Shown here in pieces: positions 17,039 to 26,593 of a stretch of DNA of 64,000 nucleotides (position 1 is the first letter of the stretch; the number at the start of each line of letters is the position of its first letter). The DNA lies in NCBI GenBank assembly GCA_023703675.1, contig CP097974.1, positions 581,288 to 645,287 on the forward strand, given 5' to 3'. Made by a program: the position numbers and the translations under genes. Origin of the DNA: SAR86 cluster bacterium. Lineage in GTDB: Bacteria > Pseudomonadota > Gammaproteobacteria > Magnimaribacterales > AG-339-G14. The notes beneath the pieces are model-generated. The model worked only from the letters and a program-made list of their open reading frames with translations, was not told the DNA's origin and did no database searches.

Positions 17039-17048
17039 GATAAAAATA

Positions 17049-17083
17049 AAAAAATCCTCTTTATCAAAAAGAGGATTTTTTTA
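17049..17083. terminator. Bidirectional rho-independent terminator
   Basis: A stem of AAATCCTCTTT with AAAGAGGATTT around a short ATCAA-type loop has an A-run on its left and a T-run on its right. It can therefore stop transcription in both directions. It lies between the acyl-CoA synthetase (plus strand, ends 17038) and the convergent exported-protein gene (minus strand, ends 17088). Confidence 0.85.
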
Positions 17084-17087
17084 GTGT

Positions 17088-20000
17088 TTAATTTGCTTCA
17101 AATACGGTTTGTCCATGCACCACTGAAGGATTACCATTGTTAATAATACCAGTTGTCGGCTTAATACCTATATAGTCAGACGAACTTGATGATTGCGAAT
17201 TATTTTTTAGAAGAGAAAACGATGCACTTGTTTCTAATGCTGCTTTATCTAAAGTATAAGTAGTAGCCAGGGTGGCGGTCTCACTGTCAGTTTTTTTAGT
17301 AATAAAATCGTCGCCCCGTAAACCTAAGACTTTAATATTAGGTTTCGTTTCATCGGAATTTACAAGAATAGTTCCATCAGGAATTACAAAGTCATGAACG
17401 TATCTATAACATTGATTCCAATTGCCATTGTAATATTTTCCTACCTCAACACCGGTACAAGTGTTGATAACTCTTCCAGGAATATTGCGCAACTCTCCAT
17501 AACCTTCAAATTTTAGTAAAAACTTTTGACCAGAATAATCTAGTCCTGAAAAATTATATCTCACGTTTGTAGCTGGAACTTTGAAAGTTAAGGTTTCTGG
17601 TGGAGAAATACTAATCTCAGCACCAGTAGTTGCGTTACTCAAGCTATATTCAGGTCTTTGCATAACTCCTATTCTATAAGTGGTAGTTAATGCGCCTCTA
17701 TGAAGCTTATCAGAACAATAATATTTAGAAGTCGCTATGTTGACCATATAAGAAGTATTGTCACTAACTTTTTTGATCTCTGGTGCATAGCCCTGATATT
17801 CACCATCATCTCGTTTATCACACTCAACTGCGTTTAAGTTAAGAGTGGTATTTTCAAAGACTTCCATATCGAACCAGTGTCCAGCCCTTCTTGTGTAATT
17901 ATTAGTTGTTCCAAGGCTGTAAGGTTTCTCGTAATAATTAAAATTTCTTATCGTATCCTCTAACTGTCTAGACGCAGAACTTATTTTTGTTAATACATCT
18001 ACCGAGCTAGTCGATGGAATCGAAATACTAACTCCATTAGTCCAAGTAAGAGCAGTAGAACTATCTAAAATGCTACCGCTATTTACCGTATAAGTAACTA
18101 CCTCAGCAGCTTTAGTTCCCCCAATCCACATGTGATCGCCCGGAGACATTTTAAATTCTCCGTTAGCTGCATTGAATTCGCCGTTAGTATTCCAATCAGT
18201 ATAAACTTCCTCTTTAAACCAGCTTCCAACATTTTTATATGGAGAAATATTTAAAGTACCCCCGGTAGAACCATTAGTTATAGAGGCAAATATTCCGCCC
18301 ATTGTTTGATTCATTTTTGTTGCATCTATGCAGTTTCTTAGACAAGCAAGATTGTTTGGTAGAGAATTTACTGCGATTTTTTTCTCCGTTCTAGACTTGG
18401 TTAGATGTGCATCAGTAGTGCTGACTGGGTTTGAAAAAGCTTCAAAAGGAATCTCGTACCCTCTTCTATTAGTATCATCCCATAAATGCCAACCTTGACC
18501 CCAGTTTTGTCCAGCTTTTTTCAATTGTGTAGCCCAATCACTTGCTGTAAAGGAAAAAGAAGTATTTAAATCAAATGGACCATTTCCTGAATTCCAATCG
18601 ATGCCTTTAGTGATAGTAAAAGTAACCACAGTACTCGCACCCGTACCCGAAACTGTAACTGTTCCAGCGTATTCATCGCAATTACCATCAGTAGCGTTAC
18701 AAGAGCCGGTAGTAGGAAACCCTAAATTCGACATTCCTGATGACCAATCATTATCTCTTTTTAACCATCCTACATAACCAAAAAAGCTTACTTTATCTAG
18801 ATCAGCTAATTGTCTTTTTTCAGTAGTGATTTCGAATACCTGTAAAAAATTTTGTTTTAGATTGTAAGTGTTTGTATCGGTTGAACTGCTGTTGTTTCTA
18901 AAAATAGTAGTATTGCTCACTAAGGGTCTATCAGTGCTGTTGACGTGAGTACCCCAGTAACTTGCATGTGCATAAACTTCTCTACCATCAGGGAAAGAGA
19001 CATTGTCTCCTTTTGTAGCCCTTAAGGACATAGATCCTTGAGCAGCATCGTATTTTTTATCGGCATCAGCGGTAACTAAATTACCAGCGTTGTAAGTCCC
19101 ATATTGATAGACGGTTCTTTTGGTATCTGCAGCTGCTGTACCCCAGCAATTTTCTCCAGTTACATTAGCACCGCCTCCAAATGCTTGAACTTCTTGTGCT
19201 GCATCAGCAATTGTTTTAAAACTTGCTGCATTAAGTGGGTTACCAACATTTTGTGGTCCAGAATTAGTAAATTGAATCCTTTGCGCTTCTACAAGATTTT
19301 GACAATAAACATTAGTCGTATCATTGAAATAAAACTGATGCACAAAAGTATACTGTTCTACATTATTACTTATATCAACAACTGAACCTGCTGTTCTCAT
19401 AATTCCTTGAGTAACACCCGTAGATGAATTTTTATTTAATTTAAGTTGTATTGGAGGTCCACTTCCTCTTTCGACAAAAGTTATTTCATCTCCTGAAACT
19501 CCAACATAACCTTGTGCCATTTGGGTATTCGCTGAGATTGTTGTTTCTGGATCAGTTGAAAATTCTTCATCATTAACTAAATCATAGGTAAAAGTAAAAG
19601 TTCCCAACTGGTTCTCATCACTTACATCTTCTTGAATATCCATTTTTACAAATGCTGTAGCGGGACCCCTAAAAGATTCTTGACCAAAAAAGTCAATCTC
19701 TAGCTCAACCCATGATTTACCATCAATAGAACCATCGGTTGCAGTAACAGCAACAACGGTTTGTGTTGTGTAATCAACATTATCCACAGTACCTGTAGTG
19801 GTAGTAGTTTTAGAAGATTCTGCACTCGTTGCTTTCGCCGCACTCGCTTCCGCAGTAGAATCTGAACCATCCGCTTTTTCACAAGATTTCTCATCGATTA
19901 AAGCTTTGTAAGTACCTTTGTCTATGAAATCACTTACATTGGTGTTTTTCATAAAACAGATTAAAAAATTTAAACTTTGTAATCCGTCGTTGGCTAATAA

Positions 20001-20102
20001 TCCATTCACGTAAAAATCTTTTTTGCTTAAATCTGCTGTATAAGTTTGAGCGACCGCAAAAGAACTTATAAGCAATGCAATTAAAAATGTTATTTTTTTC
20101 AT
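17088..20102 (-). CDS. Large exported protein of unknown function (module 2, large partner)
   Basis: The product has 1004 residues with a cleavable signal peptide (about 1-18, ending AVAQ). Near the start it carries LNFLICF (Cys49) and LIDEKSC (Cys74), then a Ser/Thr/Ala-rich linker (about 77-110). After that comes a long, mostly beta, Gly/Asn/Thr-rich body. Toward the end it shows NTCTG, YRY, VIPDGTILVN and the terminus INNGNPSVVHGQTVFEAN. These elements recur in order in the 1041-residue protein at 21943. No catalytic motif, transmembrane segment or secretion tag is recognised. GGAGAG precedes the ATG. It lies 18 bases after the small lipoprotein gene. An extracellular or surface beta-rich binding protein is the best description. 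Confidence 0.75.
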   Translation of the reverse strand: MKKITFLIALLISSFAVAQTYTADLSKKDFYVNGLLANDGLQSLNFLICFMKNTNVSDFIDKGTYKALIDEKSCEKADGSDSTAEASAAKATSAESSKTTTTTGTVDNVDYTTQTVVAVTATDGSIDGKSWVELEIDFFGQESFRGPATAFVKMDIQEDVSDENQLGTFTFTYDLVNDEEFSTDPETTISANTQMAQGYVGVSGDEITFVERGSGPPIQLKLNKNSSTGVTQGIMRTAGSVVDISNNVEQYTFVHQFYFNDTTNVYCQNLVEAQRIQFTNSGPQNVGNPLNAASFKTIADAAQEVQAFGGGANVTGENCWGTAAADTKRTVYQYGTYNAGNLVTADADKKYDAAQGSMSLRATKGDNVSFPDGREVYAHASYWGTHVNSTDRPLVSNTTIFRNNSSSTDTNTYNLKQNFLQVFEITTEKRQLADLDKVSFFGYVGWLKRDNDWSSGMSNLGFPTTGSCNATDGNCDEYAGTVTVSGTGASTVVTFTITKGIDWNSGNGPFDLNTSFSFTASDWATQLKKAGQNWGQGWHLWDDTNRRGYEIPFEAFSNPVSTTDAHLTKSRTEKKIAVNSLPNNLACLRNCIDATKMNQTMGGIFASITNGSTGGTLNISPYKNVGSWFKEEVYTDWNTNGEFNAANGEFKMSPGDHMWIGGTKAAEVVTYTVNSGSILDSSTALTWTNGVSISIPSTSSVDVLTKISSASRQLEDTIRNFNYYEKPYSLGTTNNYTRRAGHWFDMEVFENTTLNLNAVECDKRDDGEYQGYAPEIKKVSDNTSYMVNIATSKYYCSDKLHRGALTTTYRIGVMQRPEYSLSNATTGAEISISPPETLTFKVPATNVRYNFSGLDYSGQKFLLKFEGYGELRNIPGRVINTCTGVEVGKYYNGNWNQCYRYVHDFVIPDGTILVNSDETKPNIKVLGLRGDDFITKKTDSETATLATTYTLDKAALETSASFSLLKNNSQSSSSSDYIGIKPTTGIINNGNPSVVHGQTVFEAN

Positions 20103-20120: not shown

Positions 20121-20318
20121 TTACTCGGCTTCGACAACTTCTATTTTTTCTGGAATTGATCCAGTTGCACTATAAGTGGATGATGAACTGCCTCCTGAAC
20201 CAGAGCCGCCTCCAGAACCAGAACCGCCTCCAGAAGAAGCTGTGCTGCCTCCCCCACCGCCACATGAGACAAAAAAAATGGAAATAACAAAAATTAGAAT
20301 CGTAAAAGGTTTCAACAT
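20121..20318 (-). CDS. Small Gly/Ser-tethered lipoprotein (module 2, small partner)
   Basis: The 65-residue product has a type II signal peptide ending FFVSC (Cys19). A low-complexity GGGGGS / SGGGSGSGG tether of about 30 residues follows, then a short end SIPEKIEVVEAE. It has the same layout as the proteins at 13394 and 25087, including the terminal Pro-x-Lys-Ile motif. AAGGAG lies upstream of the ATG. The gene is 18 bases upstream of the 1004-residue exported protein, the same spacing as in module 3. After processing nearly the whole protein is a flexible leash presenting a short peptide, which suggests a tethering or docking role (inference). Confidence 0.75.
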   Translation of the reverse strand: MLKPFTILIFVISIFFVSCGGGGGSTASSGGGSGSGGGSGSGGSSSSTYSATGSIPEKIEVVEAE

Positions 20319-21942: not shown

Positions 21943-24900
21943 TTACGATGATGGATCAAAAACCACTGTACCGTGATTGACTGCAGTATCACCATTATTT
22001 ATCAACGTACTCTTCTCTGGAACCGCACCAATTGAGTCAGACCCACCAGGGCCCATATCTTTTAAAGTGTCAGCATCTGGAAGGATTGCTTTGGTTAGGC
22101 CAGTGTAATCTAAACCTTTCGCGGTTATTGGCGAAAGCAGTTCGTCTCCTGCAAGAGCTTTGACAATGTAAGTATTAGAAGTCGCTTCGTCGGTTAACTG
22201 AGCTCCATCTGGAATAGTAAATCTAGGAAGATAACGCATGCATTGATCGTCCCATTGTCCAAAATAATATTCGCCAAGATCTGTTCCGGTACAAGTATTA
22301 TAAATTGATCCTGGAATATTTAAGTATGAACCAAAGCCATTGTAAAAAAATCTATAATCTTTTTTGGCATCTTTAGCAGTAATTCCAGAAGCTGCAGTTT
22401 GTGCCGAAGTCCAGCTATCTGGGTCTAGAATCAAATAAGAGGGTGCAGAAAAAACAATCTTCGCACTGGAAGCAGCATTTATTAATTCCCATTGAGGTCT
22501 TATCCTCATTGAAATTCTATAATACTCAGTAACTTTTCCTTCCCAGATATTTTCTTGACAATATCTTGTTTTACCTTCATTTCCTGTACCTGTCCATTTG
22601 GTTCGAGGCGCATAACTTCCATCAATTTTTTCACATTCAAGATTAGATTGTTGAGAGGCAGGAACTAATGGGCCAGTTTCGGCTGCCCAATCCAAATAAG
22701 CAGTGTACCAAGTTCCAAAAGTCGCGTCGTAATCAGGTTTTTTCATTTGAACTTGCCTCAAAGCATCAGCTGCACTCATATTTTTCGCAGAAGCCAATGC
22801 AGTAAAAGCCGCTTGAGTATTCGACGTTGCGCCCGAACCATGAATGTTCATCTCATTATTAACATCCGCAGAAGTATCGTATATTTTTCCTCCAGACTTA
22901 ACGTATCGTACTTCATTGTCGACAATATTACCTTGACCACACTCCTGCCAATCGTCAGCAGCATTGCCACCTGTTCCATTATCATTGATCACACAATCTG
23001 AAGTCGCTGCAAAATAACCGCTATTAACGAGTTGATCATTGCCGCCGCCTGCTAAAGAATTAGCAGTAGAGGTAAGGACAGCATTGAACACACTTGCATC
23101 AATGCAATCAAAATAACAATACAAAGTATCTGGAACATCTGTCATATCTTTTACAATTGTCATGGTTTCTTTTTTAATACCGGCAGAAGCTGTTGCAGAT
23201 GTTGGAGCATTTATCGCTTCTGGTGAAATCTGATAATAGATTTGTGTTTCCGGAGACCAACCGTCTAGTCCTCTTCTATTAGTCCATCCGCCCTCACTTT
23301 TAGTCATCGTGCTATACCAATTAGCTCCCGAAATAGTGATCGGTGTCGATAATTCAACTTCAGGATTTTGATTGTTTCCAGTCAAGGCCCATTTCATTGC
23401 ATGAGTAAAGACAAAAGATGCTGATGCTTTGTCCCAGTAACCTTTGTATTCTTCGTAACAAGCCGTGTTACTAGCATCTGAATAATGAGTGTAGTCACAT
23501 TGTGTGCCACCATTAGAAGCAGTAGAACCAAACATATTGGCAGCACCGTATTCTGCCCCCCAATAAGGATCTCCAATATAAAGATTTATCTGAACTTGAT
23601 CTAAAGAATCTAATGACGAGTATGAAGTAACGAATTTTAAGATTTCGAGATGATTTTTTTGTACTTTGTATTGAGTAGTATCAGTTGAACCATCGTCTCG
23701 AACCCAAGTAGCTCCTATAAGACTAGATTCTGGGTTCATGTAATCATCGACCCAAGTGCCGTAATAATCAGCCCAACCAAACATGTCGTCTTTACCAGAA
23801 ACTGGATTGTCTGCTCTGATTGGGAAACCGCCGCCAGTCGTTTCATGTCTCGCTCCAGTGGTTGAATCGTAAACGCCATATCTGTAAACATCTTTTTTTG
23901 CTGTTGCTATATCAGAAGAATAACAAGTCTCGGCCGTGGAATAACCTTGACTAGAAATTTGGGCGTCGGTAAGAGAAACTGCAGTAGGTTCTTCTCCATC
24001 ACCATAACCATCGGCATCATAATTTATTTGTAGGAAATCGGCACCAACTAACTTTGTGCAGTAGTATTTCAGGCTGTCGTTCACTTTAAACGCATAGAAT
24101 TTATTGTATGGACCCCAAGTATTAGCATCTGTAGGACTAGGCCCCCAACCTTCTGAGCTGACATAAACTCCCTCTGAACCAGTTGAATTGAAAGTTACAG
24201 AAACTTCAAGCGCTCCAAAGATATTGTCTTTGTAACTGATAGTATTACCACTAGCAGCTAAGTATCCATTTCCAATGTTAAAAGTAGCATTGGTTGCAAT
24301 CCCAGCTGCAGTGTCTGTGGCAGCGGTACCTACAGAAGCTCCAGCAACAACGTCTGCAATAGTGCTTGGGGGAGTTAAACCTCCACCTGTTCCAGGTAAA
24401 TATACTTCTCCAGGATTTGCATAAATAGAATAATTAGCAGTAAAGTCTCCAAATTTTGAAGTTGGCGTACCATCTCCTTTCAAAACGGGATTCGGATTAG
24501 CGGTTTGAGAGAAATTAAAATAGACAACTTTGTCCATTGCGTCAAATGGATCTCCGCCAGCATTTGAATCAGCAGCACCAGTTGCACCGCCTGCCCCGCT
24601 TCCGCCTCCTTTTTTTGGAAGAAAAACCCAAGACTTAACATTCATTGCCCCTGCCGAATCAGTTTGTGTGGCTAAGTTATAAGACTTTGTTAATTGGGTT
24701 TCAGAACCTTTTGATTTACTAGCTGCATCTTTAGATGAACTTCCACCGCCCGAACCACCACTTGATTGCTGAGAAGCTTGAGAGGTTGAGTTCTTATTAG
24801 AATCTTTAGACGTATCCCTAGCTGCGTCACATAAATTTTCATTTATAGCAGCAACAAAAGGACCTGAAGTGTTTAATAAACTTTCAGGTCTAGTGTTGGA

Positions 24901-25068
24901 TATAAAACATAATAGAAAATTAACCTGTCCTAATGAATCGTTTAAAGCATTACCCCCAACGAAGAAATCGGTTTTATCAGTAAAGTAGGCAGAACCTGCT
25001 TGAGCTGTCACGTTTTGTCCGTAAGCAAAAGCCGGAATTAAAGTAAAAAGTATAATTAATTTTTTCAT
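21943..25068 (-). CDS. Large exported protein of unknown function (module 3, large partner)
   Basis: The 1041-residue product has a signal peptide (about 1-18, ending AYGQ). It shares with the 1004-residue protein the N-terminal VNFLLCF (Cys54) plus INENLC (Cys80) and a Ser/Gly-rich linker (about 85-125). A KSWVFLP segment follows, then a long beta-rich Gly/Asn/Asp body with the ADYYGTWVDD region. Near the end come NTCTG, YYFGQW, QCMRY, TIPDGAQLTD and the terminus INNGDTAVNHGTVVFDPSS. A run of Gly/Ala near residues 150-165 and several paired cysteines suggest disulfide-linked extracellular domains. No enzyme motif is recognised. It lies 18 bases downstream of the cupredoxin-like lipoprotein. 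Confidence 0.75.
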   Translation of the reverse strand: MKKLIILFTLIPAFAYGQNVTAQAGSAYFTDKTDFFVGGNALNDSLGQVNFLLCFISNTRPESLLNTSGPFVAAINENLCDAARDTSKDSNKNSTSQASQQSSGGSGGGSSSKDAASKSKGSETQLTKSYNLATQTDSAGAMNVKSWVFLPKKGGGSGAGGATGAADSNAGGDPFDAMDKVVYFNFSQTANPNPVLKGDGTPTSKFGDFTANYSIYANPGEVYLPGTGGGLTPPSTIADVVAGASVGTAATDTAAGIATNATFNIGNGYLAASGNTISYKDNIFGALEVSVTFNSTGSEGVYVSSEGWGPSPTDANTWGPYNKFYAFKVNDSLKYYCTKLVGADFLQINYDADGYGDGEEPTAVSLTDAQISSQGYSTAETCYSSDIATAKKDVYRYGVYDSTTGARHETTGGGFPIRADNPVSGKDDMFGWADYYGTWVDDYMNPESSLIGATWVRDDGSTDTTQYKVQKNHLEILKFVTSYSSLDSLDQVQINLYIGDPYWGAEYGAANMFGSTASNGGTQCDYTHYSDASNTACYEEYKGYWDKASASFVFTHAMKWALTGNNQNPEVELSTPITISGANWYSTMTKSEGGWTNRRGLDGWSPETQIYYQISPEAINAPTSATASAGIKKETMTIVKDMTDVPDTLYCYFDCIDASVFNAVLTSTANSLAGGGNDQLVNSGYFAATSDCVINDNGTGGNAADDWQECGQGNIVDNEVRYVKSGGKIYDTSADVNNEMNIHGSGATSNTQAAFTALASAKNMSAADALRQVQMKKPDYDATFGTWYTAYLDWAAETGPLVPASQQSNLECEKIDGSYAPRTKWTGTGNEGKTRYCQENIWEGKVTEYYRISMRIRPQWELINAASSAKIVFSAPSYLILDPDSWTSAQTAASGITAKDAKKDYRFFYNGFGSYLNIPGSIYNTCTGTDLGEYYFGQWDDQCMRYLPRFTIPDGAQLTDEATSNTYIVKALAGDELLSPITAKGLDYTGLTKAILPDADTLKDMGPGGSDSIGAVPEKSTLINNGDTAVNHGTVVFDPSS

Positions 25069-25086: not shown

Positions 25087-25608
25087 TTATTGAGTATCTA
25101 TGGGTTCTACTTTAGATGGAACGGAGTAACCTGAACCACCGGATGTTCCAGAAATATTTGCGGTGCCTCCCATCCCTGAATGATTTGTGCAGAAATAGTA
25201 AAGTGGAGTAGGAGCATTAGATGCAGGAGTAAATGTAGTTTTTCCAGTGCTACCCGCAGTTCCTGTCGGTGAAACTCCCGTTGTGTATGCAGTACCCGAA
25301 GCGTGCGTTCCATTTGCAGTTTCAGAAAAAGCAAGCGGATGATTTGCATTGGTAGAGTCAGTCTGATCAAAGGTATAGGCAGTACCAGCAGTTAAAGTTA
25401 AAGTTTTTTGTGTAACTCCATCTATTGAATACTTATTTCCGCTAGCGGTAGAAACTACTTTCACACAAAAATTGGTTGCACTTGAAACACACCCAGATGC
25501 TGATCCCCCTTCATAACCAGAACCTCCTCCAGAAGAAGCTGAACCGCCTCCTCCACCACAAGCGTATAATAAAAATAAAGTTAAAATCGATAAACTGAAC
25601 TGTTTCAC
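25087..25608 (-). CDS. Lipoprotein with cupredoxin-like domain (module 3, small partner)
   Basis: The 173-residue product has a lipoprotein signal (LLYAC, Cys17) and a GGGGGSASSGGG tether. A blue-copper-like beta-sandwich (about residues 42-152) follows, then the end YSVPSKVEPIDTQ. The four classical copper ligands are visible in order: His90 (ANHPLAFS), Cys140, His143 and Met146 (FCTNHSGMGG). The same domain type is common in marine bacterial and phage structural proteins, where copper binding is often unproven. Compared with the sister lipoproteins at 13394 and 20121, the cupredoxin is inserted between the tether and the terminal Pro-x-Lys-Val motif. It precedes the 1041-residue exported protein by 18 bases and may bring a copper or redox function to that surface complex. 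Confidence 0.8.
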   Translation of the reverse strand: MKQFSLSILTLFLLYACGGGGGSASSGGGSGYEGGSASGCVSSATNFCVKVVSTASGNKYSIDGVTQKTLTLTAGTAYTFDQTDSTNANHPLAFSETANGTHASGTAYTTGVSPTGTAGSTGKTTFTPASNAPTPLYYFCTNHSGMGGTANISGTSGGSGYSVPSKVEPIDTQ

Positions 25609-25629: not shown

Positions 25630-25761
25630 CTAGCAAATATACATTCCGCAAATATCCCCACCTGTAGATTCACAAGCCATTAAACATAAAACAACCAATG
25701 TATAAAAAAATTTTTTGGATATTATTTTTGTCTTTGAAAGGAATTTATTCACTTGAAGCAT
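25630..25761 (-). CDS. Candidate 43-residue micro-lipoprotein
   Basis: A short frame upstream of the cupredoxin lipoprotein encodes 43 residues: a basic start (KFLSKTKIISKK), a hydrophobic core (FFYTLVVLCLM) and a lipobox LMAC. The mature part would be only CESTGGDICGMYIC, 14 residues with three cysteines. The gap to the next gene is 21 bases, so it could be the first gene of module 3. Against it: the ribosome site is weak (AAGG about 17 bases upstream) and short frames are frequent in AT-rich DNA. The lipobox at the right place is the main support. Confidence 0.4.
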   Translation of the reverse strand: MLQVNKFLSKTKIISKKFFYTLVVLCLMACESTGGDICGMYIC

Positions 25762-25825: not shown

Positions 25826-26593
25826 TTATTTTGGTGCCATTCTAATTCCTCCATCCAAACGGATTGTTTCTCCATTCAAAAAGGGATTCTCAATTATTTG
25901 AGCCGTTAAGAGAGCAAATTCAACAGGATCTCCTAAACGCTTAGGAAACTGAGTCATCTCAATAAGCGGCTTTCTTACTTCGTCAGATGCCATCGCCATA
26001 AGAGGTGTGTCAAATATTCCTGGAGCAATAGTATTTATTCGAATTCCCATTCTTGCTAAGTCTCTTGCAATTGGAAGTGTCATTGCTGTCACCCCGCCTT
26101 TACTGGCGCTATAAGCAGCCTGTCCAATTTGGCCATCAAAAGCAGCAACCGATGCGGTATTGATAATCACTCCACATTCGTTGTCGGCTTCTGGTTCATT
26201 CTTGCCCATCTCTTCGGCTGCAAGTCTAAGGGTGTTAAAAGTACCGACCAGATTAACGTCTATAACAATTTTAAAAATATCTAAAGGGTGCGCACCATCT
26301 CTGCCGACTGTTTTTGAGGCGCTACCGATGCCCGCACAATTAACTAAAATATGTATCGCGCCGAATTCGTCGATTGCACTTTTAATAGCGTTTTTCACGC
26401 TTTCTTCATCTGCTACATTAGTCACCACCCCTGTGACATTAGTTTTTAATTCTTCTTGTGCACTCTTGAGATTGTCTTCATTTAAATCCAATAAAACTAG
26501 TTTTGCTCCCTTTGCATGTAAATTTTTAGCAGTTGCTAAACCTAAACCGGAAGCACCTCCGGTAATGAGTGCCACTTTATTTTCTATATTCAA
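25826..26593 (-). CDS. 3-hydroxyacyl-CoA dehydrogenase-like SDR (HSD10/type II family)
   Basis: The 255-residue short-chain dehydrogenase has cofactor motif TGGASGLG (11-18), NCAG (85-88) and the catalytic triad Ser148, Tyr161, Lys165. Asp36 after the second strand (LVLLDLN) points to NAD rather than NADP. The overall sequence, with the insert GRDGAHPLDIF and the end RLDGGIRMAPK, is typical of the HSD17B10-like group. That group oxidises 3-hydroxyacyl-CoA, including branched short-chain and steroid substrates. It is divergent from the crotonase/SDR/ligase operon starting at 26710, so the 116-base gap contains promoters for both. Together they look like parts of one CoA-thioester degradation route. 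Confidence 0.88.
   Translation of the reverse strand: MNIENKVALITGGASGLGLATAKNLHAKGAKLVLLDLNEDNLKSAQEELKTNVTGVVTNVADEESVKNAIKSAIDEFGAIHILVNCAGIGSASKTVGRDGAHPLDIFKIVIDVNLVGTFNTLRLAAEEMGKNEPEADNECGVIINTASVAAFDGQIGQAAYSASKGGVTAMTLPIARDLARMGIRINTIAPGIFDTPLMAMASDEVRKPLIEMTQFPKRLGDPVEFALLTAQIIENPFLNGETIRLDGGIRMAPK

Follow-up and report, generated by a model that had tools for sequence, protein, structure and literature searches.

Results

The lipocup locus

The window, as we call the whole stretch of 64,000 nucleotides analysed here, is part of the 1.19-Mb genome of a SAR86 cluster bacterium. At positions 25087..25608 of its minus strand, where the initial annotation had placed it, lies an open reading frame of 173 aa for a lipoprotein, an anchor with a cupredoxin insert; we call it lipocup. 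The start codon is GTG, with an SD-like GGGGGG upstream, and a same-genus relative has ATG at the same position. The protein reads MKQFSLSILTLFLLYAC-GGGGG..., then a cupredoxin-like domain, then a tail ending SGYSVPSKVEPIDTQ. The lipoprotein signal peptide and lipobox occupy residues 1-17 (LLYA-C17; 25558..25608, minus strand), and C17 is invariant in all seven cupredoxin anchors, i.e., the window copy and six SAR86 orthologues, which agrees with the lipid anchor proposed earlier. The lipobox of lipocup suggests lipidation, and its Gly at +2 suggests, by the sorting rule for lipoproteins, that it goes to the outer membrane. The insert sits between a Gly-rich spacer and a C-terminal tail (residues 160-173, GYSVPSKVEPIDTQ; 25090..25131, minus strand), which we propose to be a docking tail.

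The gene for a secreted partner, P2 (1041 aa; 21943..25068, minus strand), begins 18 nt downstream of the lipocup stop codon. The only other partner copy found in this genome, P1 (1004 aa; 17088..20102, minus strand), is preceded by a sister anchor lipoprotein of 65 aa without cupredoxin (20121..20318, minus strand; tail SATGSIPEKIEVVEAE) and followed by a terminator-like hairpin (17047..17083, minus strand). It had been claimed that lipocup belongs to a gene pair whose sisters have no such domain; the absence of the domain holds, and the genome has one sister, not several. The view of the cupredoxin as a modular insertion is supported.

In front of lipocup lie a mini-lipoprotein ORF of 43 aa ending ACESTGGDICGMYIC (25630..25761, minus strand), with a match in all seven same-genus genomes and one weak match among 54 other genomes searched, and a gene that we take from its sequence to encode a short-chain dehydrogenase (25826..26593, minus strand). 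The latter adjoins lipocup and served as a synteny marker. Promoter-like sites were left unused because they were fewer (18) than in shuffled sequences (27.5). The third-position GC of the four cassette genes (0.218-0.262) is ordinary relative to the 16 other genes examined (0.236 +/- 0.030), and we rejected recent foreign DNA on grounds of composition.

The insert is a predicted cupredoxin with a conserved ligand set

An AlphaFold model built from 63 sequences has nine strands and a pLDDT of ~98 across the domain (residues 41-153; 25150..25488, minus strand). The first 13 rows of its VIA-align comparison are all cupredoxins (Z 7.6-9.1), headed by the cupredoxin domain of a nitrite reductase (Z 9.1) and including rusticyanin (8.2-8.6) and a purple cupredoxin of Nitrosopumilus (7.6); multicopper oxidases come after these, and plastocyanin further down. 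Foldseek gave no match to the domain model at E <= 0.001, and at the top of its list multicopper oxidase and rusticyanin stand beside antibody-type folds. At the sequence level, the Pfam family Copper-bind (PF00127) scores 15.4 bits, below its gathering cut-off of 21.2 (E 0.025). When compared with PDB sequences, the domain profile aligns H, C, H and M with the plastocyanin ligands (E 0.026), the alignment having a gap of two residues in the His-Met loop, and a single-sequence search of solved structures returned one weak, unrelated match only.

The initial annotation had proposed a type 1 copper site made of His90, Cys140, His143 and Met146 (codons at 25339-25341, 25189-25191, 25180-25182 and 25171-25173, minus strand). 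The order of these residues and their C-x2-H-x2-M spacing were confirmed. All four are invariant in the window copy and in the six SAR86 orthologues of lipocup (46-81% identity). All four are also kept in 127 of the 130 distinct domain copies of a first set and in 195 of the 202 of an enlarged set that includes phage copies. The seven exceptions are two copies gapped at the Cys-His-Met loop, two that read K-D-H-T and three with other losses. These fractions come from collection scans that partly pre-selected the ligands: each of the three scans had a pattern containing the Cys, and among the six patterns of the third scan one holds the second His and the Met and another holds the first His. 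Another 19 copies of the set come from whole-genome loci that were retrieved with the whole protein instead of such patterns, and 18 of these keep all four. The model and the ligand counts support a cupredoxin fold with a complete type-1-like ligand set for this domain, and the module most likely binds one copper ion through the four residues.

The domain shares with plastocyanin, amicyanin and rusticyanin a beta-sandwich in which a His is followed by Cys-His-Met in one loop before the last strand, and C-x2-H-x2-M is the loop length of amicyanin. Unlike them, it scores under the PF00127 cut-off, it is an inserted module and no free carrier, and its family has a consensus S-x-T-x2-G-T-H-x4-Y-T-T-G-V between the first His and the Cys. 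The domain is entered through a motif, C40-x2-S-x-T-N-x-C48 (25465..25491, minus strand), that was found in the seven SAR86 anchor copies only, among the 202 domain copies. A eukaryotic relative is hinted at by the Pfam At5g54830-like domain (PF25489), which 11 of 63 domain copies match at E <= 0.1, the best of them at E 2e-06.

Relatives in phages and in other SAR86 proteins

The kinship to marine phage structural proteins that had been suspected was confirmed. The domain matches phrog_27200 (unnamed; E 8.5e-19) and phrog_30742 (tail fibre; E 1.1e-13), and tblastn retrieved 165 phage records at E <= 0.001, each at less than 60% identity. Phages of Synechococcus and Prochlorococcus and cyanophages make up most of these records, and some belong to phages of Pelagibacter and Methylophilales; in Cyanophage S-TIM5 the domain lies within a virion structural protein (AEZ65678.1). 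A tail-fibre protein with three tandem cupredoxin domains was found at a viral locus that also carries a major head protein (L119:3263-5665). The phage domains are up to 62% identical to that of lipocup and have the same four ligands in most copies, whereas the lipocup domain is predicted to be lipid-anchored, belongs to a cellular two-gene unit and has the C-x2-S-x-T-N-x-C entry motif, which is absent from every viral copy examined.

Other SAR86 lipoproteins carry the domain near their C-terminus, in open frames of 305-326 aa and in ORFs of 568-578 aa, and because of these the predicted lipid anchoring of the domain is neither unusual nor unique to the lipoprotein of the window. The lipoproteins of 568-578 aa (L071:2755-4491, L072:2986-4692 and L073:3246-4979) combine the C-terminal cupredoxin with HEYFHVYQN, whose HExxH is presumably a metalloprotease-like motif, and they adjoin arrays of anchor-partner pairs. 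The domain also occurs in open frames of more than 3000 aa in other SAR86 genomes. One giant open frame of the SAR86 order (L012:1-3324; 3684 aa) has two cupredoxin copies, one of them without three of the four ligands.

Anchor and partner form a two-gene unit

Lipocup is the anchor half of a two-gene unit. In the loci examined, the upstream DNA could be read for 39 distinct SAR86 partner genes, and every one of them has an anchor lipoprotein directly in front of it. This count excludes partners with a cut-off N-terminus, repeats, and further matches without a retrieved locus; 38 of the anchors were found by script and one (L073) by eye. Seven of them have a cupredoxin, one has a bacterial Ig domain and 31 are plain, the 30 plain ones read by script being 45-107 aa long. 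The Ig-bearing anchor, from another family of the order (G041; L082:3520-9839), is a 611-aa protein with a Big_9 domain and the tail YEVPSSIDVIETKD, and precedes a partner of 1492 aa. Neither Pfam nor NCBIfam recognised a family in P1 or P2. The AlphaFold model of P1, built from nine sequences, has a mean pLDDT of 56.6 and gave no clear match with Foldseek and VIA, and for these reasons we draw no conclusion on the partner fold.

A profile search of 369 genomes of the class (E <= 1e-5) found the partner in 13, namely that of the window, one other SAR86 and 11 others; two further genomes of the SAR86 order in this sample gave no partner. In nine of the 11 non-SAR86 gammaproteobacterial genomes (G082, G092, G160, G163, G229, G242, G255, G272 and G279) anchor and partner are one chain. 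This fused form, for which there is no family name, has the same order as the SAR86 pair, i.e., linker, tail motif (L/M)Pxx(I/L/M)(S/E)V and partner body, and differs from it in being a single polypeptide. A lipobox is present in eight of the nine chains; for the ninth (G163) the contig ends before this region is reached. The linker is Gly-rich in most, with the exception of G092 and G160, and a search for a cupredoxin in the nine chains found none. Five fused relatives scanned with Pfam matched no family, and four scanned with NCBIfam gave two matches far below cut-off, both in one protein. In the two remaining genomes (G361 and G297) the unit is split: a separate short lipoprotein ending QQISVVTAK or GNVAVVTATNTN is followed by a secreted partner.

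The resemblance of the SAR86 anchor tail to the segment that is covalently joined to the partner in the fused genomes is our main ground for proposing that the tail probably docks the large partner. The tail is short, its conservation is loose, and the g4 tails (QVEFTET and QVELVET) lack the Pro. The tail pattern, which was written after seeing the tails, fits 29 of 30 distinct tails, against a mean of 9.2 and a maximum of 17 in shuffled sequences.

A constant anchor with changing partners

The cupredoxin anchor adjoins the same short-chain dehydrogenase gene in all seven genomes that have it, and the partners behind it belong to at least three lineages. In a partner tree of 36 rows the cupredoxin-anchor label needs four changes, at least three of them forced by starred branches, a rough count because the tree is quick, with long branches and a simple model. 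The tree took in six of the seven cupredoxin anchors and left out G009, whose partner is a fragment. In the g4 genome G027 a plain anchor lies near that dehydrogenase, with a 190-aa gene between them.

The sister genome G004 illustrates such an exchange. Its DNA matches lipocup up to window position 25126 and then continues as the tail of the sister anchor and P1, from 20174 to 17047, the end of the terminator-like hairpin after P1. A 3' remnant of P1 at the old site is 96% identical over 166 nt to the moved copy of the same genome. This switch from lipocup to the sister tail and P1 is a recombination joint at the tail, and it shows that tail and partner moved together. The dehydrogenase site is without a copy in five other genomes of the genus, and the second site is empty in the four same-genus genomes where it is readable. 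The initial annotation had spoken of module diversification: the modular insertion stands, and in place of one lipoprotein that diversifies, the better picture is a cupredoxin anchor that stays the same at its locus and whose partners change.

Discussion

Our results suggest, with a probability of about 0.6, that a membrane-tethered protein is here split over two genes, and that lipocup is its anchor half, which carries a copper-site module and holds P2 by its tail. The signal peptide would be cut before Cys17, which would be lipidated, and the Gly-rich spacer would lead to the cupredoxin module with its one copper ion. The C-terminal tail would dock P2 and hold it at the membrane, probably the outer one. 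The cupredoxin would then be a copper-binding surface module on the anchor that holds P2, and may also have a redox role for the partner.

A copper-stabilised module for surface binding, suggested by the relatives of the domain in phage fibres, and a short-range acceptor of electrons or copper for the partner are both compatible with these data; we favour a copper-binding surface module. The domain might also serve structure or adhesion as a beta-sandwich of the kind seen in phage tail fibres, with the metal as a leftover or a stabiliser of the fold and without redox role. Phage structural and tail-fibre proteins are its strongest annotated relatives, and the viral tail-fibre protein with the domain in triplicate, encoded close to a major head protein, fits this idea. 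Yet all but seven of the 202 copies keep the four ligands, from which we argue that the metal is used in some way, and we give this purely structural role somewhat less than an even chance. The complete type-1-like ligand set, the cupredoxin fold and the position of the gene 18 nt before that of the partner would all suit a subunit that exchanges electrons or copper with the large partner. This role seems unlikely to us, as 31 plain anchors and an Ig-bearing one serve the same partner family without a cupredoxin, and neither P1 nor P2 gave a match to a known domain. The Pfam score below cut-off could be that of a chance or degenerate domain without function, but this is very improbable given the confidence of the fold, the conservation of the ligands and the existence of six orthologues at 46-81% identity.

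The initial annotation had also raised the possible acquisition of the domain from phage. A direct transfer from a marine phage into the SAR86 anchor would fit the identities of the window domain, which reach 62% both with the closest viral copy and with the closest g4 orthologue, but only 51% with the closest cellular copy outside the anchors; the other four g4 orthologues are 53-55% identical to it. It would also fit a quick tree of 129 rows, in which the window copy and the other copy of its two-genome group (g1) fall among viral rows. A more careful tree of 65 rows, rooted on f3 copies, speaks against it by joining all seven SAR86 anchors (98/84) beside a mostly viral clade, although a tree constrained to group the g1 copies and the viral rows is not rejected on these data (p 0.13). 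When extra viral copies are added in a careful tree of 84 rows, whose bootstrap had not settled, the seven anchors are not joined, yet their union is not rejected by the AU test (p 0.197). All these trees use only ~110 columns. It also counts against transfer that the viral copies had been selected for their similarity to the window copy or to one g4 copy. One L012 copy was dropped before the 129-row tree; the 65-row tree dropped two L012 copies, L094, L105, L196 and near-copies more than 80% alike, and the 84-row tree dropped L012, L094, L105, L196, L271, L273, L275, L276 and near-copies above 74%. The ordinary third-position GC and the presence of the domain in several other SAR86 lipoproteins also count against direct transfer, which we consider doubtful. 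As the three trees disagree on the placement of the anchor domains, we rejected phage origin as a firm claim. Because of the shared entry motif and synteny, we favour a single origin of the seven SAR86 cupredoxin anchors.

Among the literature matches listed, nothing was found on the metal site of the domain, on its occurrence in phages or on the anchor-partner pair. The parts of these sources that were retrieved deal with tail-fibre gene clusters and photosynthesis genes (PMC3686209), with phage structural genes and a petE entry (PMC10436341), and with a list of folds (PMC3567143).

More broadly, it is an even bet that an undescribed surface platform, made either of one lipoprotein or of an anchor and a tail-docked partner, is common to SAR86 and other Gammaproteobacteria; in it the spacer would be a slot for modules, and recombination at the tail would swap the partner. 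SAR86 is an abundant ocean lineage, and the members of the large partner family that were scanned have no Pfam or NCBIfam name. The existence of fused and split forms provides a testable rule for how the partner is tethered. If the platform is real, the slot before the tail would here hold a copper protein shared with phage tail fibres, and one copper-bearing anchor could exchange its large partner by recombination at the tail. The copper-site module ties a protein of the bacterial envelope to a fibre domain of marine phages.
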